Below the pieces are notes generated by a model. The model ran no database searches. It was given only the letters and a program-made list of their open reading frames with translations, and was not told where the DNA came from. A DNA stretch of 40,277 nt, from positions 1 through 40,277 of the forward strand of contig CAADGJ010000195.1 in assembly GCA_900696505.1 (NCBI GenBank), written 5' to 3'. Every line of letters starts with the position of its first letter. The first letter of the stretch is position 1. Position numbers and translations under genes: made by a program. The DNA comes from an uncultured Nitrosospira sp. GTDB lineage: Bacteria; Nitrospirota; Nitrospiria; Nitrospirales; Nitrospiraceae. Below, in pieces: positions 1 through 1,749 of the stretch.

Positions 1-410
1 ACAAGGAACAAGGTTCGTGCCGGTTGGATCGCATCGGTGACCTGTCGCACCCAGCCGGGAACGGTGGAATCCAAGACCCAGAGACGAGGAGCGCCCTTCG
101 ACGATCCAAAGGTGCAGCGCAGCACTTCCGGGCCCAAACTGCTGCCCCCCATTCCAAGTAGCACCACGTCTGTCGTGCGAGCCTCTCGAGCGGCTTGGGC
201 GAAGCTTCGCAAGTCGGAAAGTCCGTCTTGCATGTGGTCGAGTACGGTCAGCCACCCCAGCCTGTTATCGATTTCCGTCGGATTCGGCTTCCAAAGGGTA
301 TGGTCTCGCATCAAAATCCGTTCGATCGCGCGACTGCTTGCCAATTCATCGAATGTTGTCGCGAGGGTCTGGGTATCCAGAAGGGAGGTCACTTTGGGGC
401 GGATCGGCAT
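1..410 (-). CDS. Glucose-6-phosphate isomerase-type SIS-domain protein, N-terminal fragment
   Basis: The gene runs off the left edge; 136 codons are visible from an ATG at 408-410, preceded by a purine-rich GGAAGAGAG. Residues near 85-95 read LLGMGGSSLGPEV, the glycine/serine-rich phosphosugar-binding loop of SIS domains. The following strand LWVLDSTVPGWV matches the phosphoglucose isomerase fold seen in stand-alone enzymes and in bifunctional transaldolase/Pgi proteins. The family interconverts glucose-6-phosphate and fructose-6-phosphate in the cytosol. The visible N-terminus starts directly with the isomerase module, so any transaldolase partner would be a separate gene. The catalytic residues lie outside the window, so isomerase activity is inferred from the family. 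Confidence 0.75.
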   Translation of the reverse strand, partial: MPIRPKVTSLLDTQTLATTFDELASSRAIERILMRDHTLWKPNPTEIDNRLGWLTVLDHMQDGLSDLRSFAQAAREARTTDVVLLGMGGSSLGPEVLRCTFGSSKGAPRLWVLDSTVPGWVRQVTDAIQPARTLFL

Positions 411-597
411 AACACGCTCTCTTCCATAGGTGGAGGAACGAAGATGCTGGTCGGCTGAGCCCTATCTTAGGTTCGAGGATGTGAAAAGGCAAACCAGGAA
501 GGGAAGGCGATACGCGATGGCGGAGTCAGTTGGAGCGAGAGAGATGAATGATGGAGGTGGAGAAGCGACCGAAGGCTAATGCGTAGCGGGCCCGACG

Positions 598-1749
598 CTA
601 TGTTTCTTCCTCCTGATCGCCCAAGTCAGCCAGGACTAGCGAAATGGAATTTTGCGATTCCAGTGCGCCGACGATATTGACGGGTGTGCCCACGGCGACC
701 TGGTCAAACAGTTGGGCAATCTGCGGGTTATCCAGCACGATACTGCCGTACGGTTGATCCGAAATTCCTTGCGCGATGCCATGAAGCTGAATGAGGCCTG
801 GCATATGTTGGCTTTTGGGGATGAGTCCTGCTTTCTGGGCTTCCTCGAATCGGCGCCGGTCGTCTATATTGGGATAGTCGAGAATCAGGGCGCGGAAATA
901 GGGCGTTTGTCCAGGTCCGCGTTTACGTTGAATGCGATATTCGCCTTCGGGAGTAGCGCCATCACCGTAGTGCTGTTTTGCCCGGATTCCTCTTGATCCT
1001 AATCGAATAGGATAGGTCAGAACTTTGCGACCGTTCTTATATAGGGTGAGGACGCGGTCGGCCTTGCTGACGACAATGGCCTGGGCCCGATGAGTTCGAG
1101 ACCAGTCAATGGTGCGTTGTGCCGATTCCCGCCACGCCGCGATCAGATCATCGTCCGCATACCGGCCTAACTCATTGGTGAGCAGGGCGGTCTGAGTCAG
1201 GAGGATTCTACCGGCTCGTTCCGAAGCCTGGATCGAATGTTCAAATTGTCCCTGTTCGAGGAACAGGCGAGCCTGTTTGACGTGCACTTCAGTTTCGACC
1301 GGATGCTCGCCCAGCACCACGCGGCTGCCGATGTCTCCCACTCGGGAGTTCAGGAGTCGAAGCCGCTGCTCGATTTTGGCGAGTTTCGTTTCGGCAGTCG
1401 TGCGTTGAGCCTGAATGCGGCTGTTGACGTCGCTCAGGAGCTGCGTGCCCTCGACTTGAAGGGCTTCCAGATCGGTTTCCAGCTCATTGTCTTCCCATGG
1501 CCACCGGACGATGTTCTCCTCGGATCGGATTCGGCCTTGTAGCGCAATCCATTGGCGGGAAAACTTGGAATAGGCTGCGGGGTTCACGTCGGAGGCTCGC
1601 AGTGTTGATAGGTCACGGTCGAGACTCTCAATGGATTCCACCAACTCCTCAGGAACGGTTTCAACGCACCCGCCCAAGCTCATCGATAATAGCGCGACGA
1701 GGGTAACGCGAGTGGCGATGCGGCAGATGTCACGTGAGCGGCTCATCAT
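598..1749 (-). CDS. Lipoprotein with degenerate L,D-transpeptidase (YkuD) domain
   Basis: 383 aa. A basic N-terminus and a hydrophobic stretch end in LGGC, so Cys28 is a probable lipidation site and the protein should be membrane-anchored outside the cytoplasm. Residues 35-200 are charged and helical, probably coiled coil. Residues 223-361 form a YkuD domain: the entry strand AIVVSKADRVLTLY, the GDGATPEGEY motif and the closing GTPVNIV are all present. The family cross-links peptidoglycan through a Cys in a [S/T]HGC signature. The equivalent position here reads PYGS (residues 333-336), so the Cys is Ser and the adjacent His is Tyr, while the upstream LHG His323 is kept. A normal transpeptidase is therefore unlikely; a binding or scaffolding role is an inference. 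Domain call is firm, function is not. Confidence 0.8.
   Translation of the reverse strand: MMSRSRDICRIATRVTLVALLSMSLGGCVETVPEELVESIESLDRDLSTLRASDVNPAAYSKFSRQWIALQGRIRSEENIVRWPWEDNELETDLEALQVEGTQLLSDVNSRIQAQRTTAETKLAKIEQRLRLLNSRVGDIGSRVVLGEHPVETEVHVKQARLFLEQGQFEHSIQASERAGRILLTQTALLTNELGRYADDDLIAAWRESAQRTIDWSRTHRAQAIVVSKADRVLTLYKNGRKVLTYPIRLGSRGIRAKQHYGDGATPEGEYRIQRKRGPGQTPYFRALILDYPNIDDRRRFEEAQKAGLIPKSQHMPGLIQLHGIAQGISDQPYGSIVLDNPQIAQLFDQVAVGTPVNIVGALESQNSISLVLADLGDQEEET

Follow-up and report, generated by a model that had tools for sequence, protein, structure and literature searches.

The window analysed here, the whole stretch of 40,277 nucleotides from a Nitrospira genome, has 95% identity to its nearest named record (Nitrospira sp. 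UBC2) and 86% to N. defluvii, and encodes a YkuD lipoprotein that lacks the catalytic cysteine. The Cys is absent throughout the genus of the window, the YkuD domain is under purifying selection, and the Cys was lost only at loci without the adjacent L,D-transpeptidase gene found in relatives. With moderate confidence, we regard the protein as a maintained pseudoenzyme, the relic of a dismantled attach-and-detach module, which probably serves as a non-covalent, peptidoglycan-binding tether or sensor. The main clue comes from the lost partner genes, which could not be seen from the sequence alone.

The protein and its active site

The gene (598..1749, minus strand) encodes a protein of 383 residues (P0001) that consists of a signal peptide with a lipobox, a helical N-terminal domain and a Cys-less YkuD domain of the DpaA/YafK-like type. 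The sequence-only reading had described a full-length, lipidated YkuD protein, and this description is accurate. The open reading frame is complete, and the signal peptide has the lipobox LGGC at residues 25-28 (1666..1677, minus strand), with the lipid-bearing Cys28, as in bacterial lipoproteins. The strict lipobox pattern was found in 134 of the 151 family members, 115 of which have Val at position +2, as does P0001. In E. coli, Asp at +2 is the inner-membrane signal. The Val of P0001, i.e., the lack of this signal, suggests an outer-membrane location.

The N-terminal domain (about residues 29-218; 1096..1665, minus strand) is helical in an AlphaFold model and, by profile comparison, distantly related to the DUF4398-like lipoprotein whose gene precedes it in relatives (hhalign 93.5%, E 2.3e-7). 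The profile of this lipoprotein also hits distant YkuD lipoproteins (down to 3.8e-11). The YkuD domain (about residues 219-362; 664..1095, minus strand) is supported by Pfam, Foldseek and a dN/dS of 0.038. The Pfam YkuD profile (PF03734) matches residues 223-359 over positions 2-146 of its 146, with 59.2 bits for a cut-off of 23.4. The model, computed with 77 homologues as input, has a mean pLDDT of 91, and the PDB structures that match it best are those of the YkuD proteins Bd1075, Pgp2, B. subtilis YkuD and DpaA (8ikr). Foldseek E-values were better for Pgp2 and Bd1075 than for DpaA.

The motif region of P0001 reads LHGIAQGISDQPYGSIVLDN. The catalytic His of the HG motif, already recognised from the sequence, is His323 (781..783, minus strand) and is present in 169 of 169 homologues. 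The catalytic Cys is gone: PYGS (residues 333-336; 742..753, minus strand) replaces [S/T]xGC, with Ser336 at the position of the nucleophile, and the genus has either Ser or Gly there. The Cys-to-Ser change that had been placed around 743-760 is thus real. In an alignment with E. coli DpaA, PYGS corresponds to Ser140-Cys143, Ser336 to Cys143, Tyr334 to Ile141, Lys258 (976..978, minus strand) to Lys83 and Thr282 (904..906, minus strand) to Ser107. Both Lys258 and Thr282 are invariant in our alignment A1.

The second loss that had been read from the motif, of a His at position 334, did not occur. Among the 169 homologues this position is L (116), Y (33), F (10), N (5), S (3), T (1) or R (1) and never His, and the motif of E. 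coli DpaA, SIGC, has Ile there. Hence, the Cys is the sole loss. The subfamily belongs to the SxGC branch, in which the second His is absent, and has no Arg two positions after the Cys, like DpaA and the L,D-carboxypeptidases: this residue is Val in P0001 and M (113), A (17) or others in the homologues, but never R. The sequence PYGSIV does not follow the L,D-transpeptidase motif [S/T]HGC-h-R, and of the DpaA motif SxGChA it keeps the lack of Arg but not the Cys. The only Cys residues of P0001 are at positions 9 (signal peptide) and 28 (lipobox), so that none in the mature protein could stand in for the nucleophile. A replacement Cys is thereby ruled out.

The assignment of the subfamily to DpaA (also named YafK or LdtF, 8IKR) is proposed from remote similarity. 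The two share the YkuD fold (2.9 A rmsd over 149 columns of the Foldseek match), an HG...xxGC-type motif with neither His before the G nor Arg after the Cys, and the Lys at 258 (Lys83 in DpaA). They differ in that DpaA has Cys143 where P0001 has Ser336, and in the large helical N-terminal domain, which only the Nitrospira protein has. Scores with the NCBIfam model of DpaA/YafK (NF040599) were far below its cut-off of 365, for P0001 (23.6 bits) as for a Cys-bearing orthologue (28.2 bits). The L,D-carboxypeptidases Csd6, Pgp2 and Bd1075, among them the top Foldseek matches (7o21, 6xj7), also have the YkuD fold and belong to the Arg-less hydrolase branch, but they keep the catalytic Cys and their extra domains are different. 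A YkuD domain naturally devoid of the catalytic Cys is known in LdtPae1 of P. aeruginosa, whose second YkuD domain reads QLGKIR (PMC10434034). There, the Cys-less domain is fused behind an active one, whereas the YkuD domain of P0001 stands alone on a lipoprotein.

Extent of the loss and constraint on the Cys-less domain

Of the 175 genomes of the family, 158 have a match. None of the 28 distinct proteins from the window genus has the Cys; Ser is present in 27 of them and Gly in one, the motif being [YF]GS except for one YGG (L023). The sister genus has YGS (L062). Two further losses were found, one in genus g30 (L063, LGS) and one in genus g21 (L175, TGG). Other intact homologues keep the Cys, as LGC within the family and as YGC, FGC, NGC and similar motifs in the other Nitrospirota families sampled. 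The tree shows three losses, each forced by well supported branches, and the window genus and its sister form one clade with a support of 100. The Ser codons at the site are all AGY, one base away from the TGY of Cys.

According to the sequence-only reading, a normal HGC motif in close relatives would reveal a single mutated copy. Related genera do have the Cys, albeit as LGC and not HGC, but the absence of the Cys from 28 of 28 distinct proteins rules out a single mutated copy at the level of the genus. Since these proteins were taken from numerous independent assemblies, and the closed chromosomes among them agree, neither chance nor sequencing error accounts for the loss in the genus. The loss in L063 (TLGS), seen in a single g30 genome that is a MAG in about 450 contigs, may be an error or a strain variant. 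As to the conservation of Ser336 and Tyr334, about which that reading had asked, the Ser is kept in nearly the whole genus, while position 334 is Y or F in the genus and varied across the homologues.

The Cys-less protein is the sole YkuD match in the closed genomes of N. defluvii (G023) and of G006. The genome of the window encodes one more YkuD protein, with the motif SHGC (L001:1405-2199, minus strand); a second YkuD match of any kind is absent from about half of the genomes of the genus, including the closed N. defluvii.

The Cys-less proteins are strongly constrained. Pairwise dN/dS (NG86) in the genus was 0.060 for the N-terminal domain, 0.038 for the YkuD domain, 0.025 for residues 316-345 and 0.019 for the C-terminal tail, values that are rough because dS is near saturation. 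The Cys-bearing relatives gave 0.101, 0.084, 0.056 and 0.131, respectively. The active-site region of the Cys-less proteins is thus more constrained than the remainder of the YkuD domain, and every copy in the genus is full length. The stem of the Cys-less clade is long (0.40 changes per column). Ten differences are fixed between the Cys-less and the Cys-bearing clades, of which nine are in the YkuD domain and five at residues 316-336 (I316M, G317P, E321Q, T333P and C336S). In the Cys-bearing relatives the loop that connects His323 to Ser336 varies, but it has become conserved in the Cys-less clade. The active-site pocket looks as if it had been remodelled and then frozen.

A catalytic residue lost throughout a clade whose YkuD domain remains under strong purifying selection indicates a maintained pseudoenzyme rather than decay. 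The pseudoenzyme with a preserved fold that had been proposed from the sequence is well supported in this respect by the conservation across the genus, the low dN/dS, the fold, and the presence of His323 and Lys258; its proposed role as a peptidoglycan-binding scaffold is plausible.

The gene module of relatives and the lost partner genes

Elsewhere in the phylum the genes are ordered as follows: a helical lipoprotein with a Lys tail, the YkuD lipoprotein with its Cys, an L,D-transpeptidase with the motif THGC, a fourth secreted protein that is usual but not constant at this place, and pgi. The gene of the transpeptidase, a second YkuD protein of about 215 residues, mostly starts 7-15 bp past the stop codon of the YkuD lipoprotein. 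Its motif is THGC in 112 of 112 distinct sequences (THGCIR in one example). The NCBIfam models most similar to it are those of L,D-transpeptidases, the score for LdtE (36.9 bits) being below the cut-off. The upstream lipoprotein is weakly DUF4398-like (E 0.0036) and has a C-terminus rich in Lys and Arg. Lys is among its last three residues in 94 of the 108 genomes with the transpeptidase (final residue in 74 of the 108), and in one of the five without it. The order recurs in further Nitrospirota families, where, for 21 homologues on 20 further loci, the lipoprotein was found upstream in all cases and a transpeptidase directly downstream in 18.

At this locus the window genus has lost three genes, those of the transpeptidase, the upstream lipoprotein and the fourth protein. 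The gene of P0001 is separated by a gap (411..597), where L058 and other relatives have the transpeptidase and usually the fourth gene, from an open reading frame cut by the window edge (3..410, minus strand), which we take to be pgi (glucose-6-phosphate isomerase) from general knowledge of the sequence. It is the syntenic downstream end, and lies downstream of the module in L058 as well. The upstream end is marked by the divergent genes rpmH (ribosomal protein L34; 2241..2378, plus strand), rnpA, yidD, yidC and mnmE; yidC and mnmE are also divergent in L058. Neither an orthologue of the transpeptidase nor the upstream lipoprotein had any match in the 29 genomes of the window genus, which rules out a relocation of the transpeptidase within the genome.

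All three Cys losses took place on loci without the adjacent transpeptidase. Among 169 homologues, the distinct proteins with the Cys number 129 with the partner and eight without it, and those without the Cys zero with the partner and 31 without it (one Cys-bearing protein at a contig end falls outside these four classes). The branches lacking the partner make up 14.8% of the tree, and the probability that three losses all fall on them is about 0.003, a rough branch-length figure that assumes that on no branch did Cys loss precede the loss of the partner. With only three losses, significance is out of reach of the independent-pairs test.

Other loci show further states of the module. In L180, a remnant of the transpeptidase with three stop codons (G170:C476:3931-4269) lies beside a Cys-bearing YkuD lipoprotein, and is a case of partner loss caught ahead of Cys loss. 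In genus g30, where the partner is gone, the YkuD lipoprotein has stop codons in four genomes (G162, G164, G167 and G176; L195-L198) and is missing from about ten others, and the upstream lipoprotein is truncated in three (G163, G180 and G182). This is the same module decaying to nothing, and it shows that retention after the loss of the partner is not automatic. The neighbouring family f3 (L057, L235, L236 and L237) has two pairs of lipoprotein and YkuD lipoprotein, roughly 9-17 kb apart, of which just one adjoins a transpeptidase.

The fourth secreted protein (e.g., L058:6688-7446, plus strand) is conserved, with matches in 130 loci, and has no Pfam family. Its start aligns with that of the transpeptidase (hhalign 65%, E 6e-5). 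Its C-terminal part is similar to the last part of a YkuD domain, with the HG and GC motifs both absent. It may be another YkuD protein that has degenerated fully. A single-sequence AlphaFold prediction gave no usable structure (pLDDT 38).

From presumed releasing enzyme to putative tether

Lpp of E. coli, or Braun's lipoprotein, is attached to peptidoglycan via its terminal Lys; that the upstream lipoprotein ends in Lys in only 74 of the 108 genomes speaks against the reading below. The attachment of Lpp is carried out by LdtA, LdtB and LdtC, and the amidase DpaA detaches it (PMC8263019); Cys143 and Lys83 of DpaA are essential (PMC13400389, PMC8263019), and its C143A mutant is inactive (PMC8263019). 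By analogy, the ancestor of P0001 would have been a DpaA/YafK-like YkuD hydrolase, an outer-membrane lipoprotein encoded between the Lys-tailed helical lipoprotein and the L,D-transpeptidase. The transpeptidase most likely joined the C-terminal Lys of the helical lipoprotein to diaminopimelate in peptidoglycan, a link that the DpaA-like protein would then have cut. In the ancestor of the window genus and its sister, the gene of the transpeptidase would have been lost and the Cys of the hydrolase changed to Ser, in either order, with the upstream lipoprotein lost later, in the window genus. Once the linking enzyme was gone, the releasing enzyme would have had no substrate and its Cys would have been free to go. 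The protein was kept and the other residues of its groove are intact, which makes non-catalytic binding of peptidoglycan the simplest reading: with its lipid in the outer membrane, it would bind stem peptides in the intact YkuD groove and act as a non-covalent tether or sensor.

A lost Cys does not by itself prove a loss of chemistry. Lpg1514, a YafK protein of Legionella with the same scaffold, turns over beta-lactams in its C174A but not in its S132A mutant, this Cys-independent activity depends on Ser132 and His166, and the requirements of E. coli DpaA are similar (PMC13400389). By its spacing, Thr282 is probably the equivalent of Ser132, and P0001 might still be an enzyme with Thr282 as a non-canonical nucleophile, assisted by Lys258 and His323, all three being invariant. 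We find this unlikely. The activity of Lpg1514, which itself retains its Cys and probably has a Ser where P0001 has Thr, is slow and concerns beta-lactams. Moreover, Thr282 is equally invariant in the Cys-bearing relatives and is thus no replacement that arose with the loss of the Cys.

We give a similarly low probability to a retention of the domain for a protein partner instead of peptidoglycan, as a regulator or an assembly factor. Pseudoenzymes often act on protein partners, and the newly conserved loop (325-335) and the fixed changes at 316-317, 321 and 333 would suit any binding surface. Yet, Lys258 and His323, which belong to a DpaA-type active site, stay invariant, and peptidoglycan binding accounts for both more simply.

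The serine-based variant that had been suggested from the sequence, a YkuD hydrolase or transpeptidase with Ser336 as its nucleophile, is very improbable. The Ser is shared with the sister genus and its codons are close to those of Cys, but Gly occupies the position in one species of the same genus (L023) and in the independent lineage of L175. Furthermore, the C354S mutant of LdtMt2 is not acylated by beta-lactams, and such swaps are reported to lose acylation by natural substrates (PMC6391942). That the domain is a relic heading for loss, as the decayed or absent orthologues and truncated upstream lipoproteins of g30 might suggest, is least credible of all, being contradicted in the window genus by the full-length copies and by a low dN/dS that is lowest within the domain around the active site.

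The maintained, peptidoglycan-binding pseudoenzyme thus remains our preferred reading, and the loss of the Cys only where the transpeptidase is gone suggests an attach-and-release system reduced to one non-catalytic binder. In the literature collection searched, no paper was found on DUF4398 with transpeptidases, on Nitrospira with Braun lipoprotein or L,D-transpeptidases, or on this module. More tentatively, Nitrospirota might have an unrecognised Braun-lipoprotein-like system unrelated to Lpp, made of a helical Lys-tailed lipoprotein, an attaching transpeptidase, a DpaA-like releaser and the fourth secreted protein, which one lineage of Nitrospira dismantled, turning the releaser into a non-catalytic tether. 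DpaA-like proteins are present in many bacteria lacking Lpp (PMC8263019). The gene neighbourhood proposes a concrete substrate and partner for such a protein in one phylum and, if this is true, the module would provide a substrate for DpaA-like proteins in bacteria without Lpp. That the Cys was lost repeatedly, and only in the absence of the transpeptidase gene, makes functional coupling of the two a testable prediction. The conserved Cys-less protein, found in an important nitrite oxidiser, is a natural candidate for a pseudoenzyme that binds peptidoglycan.
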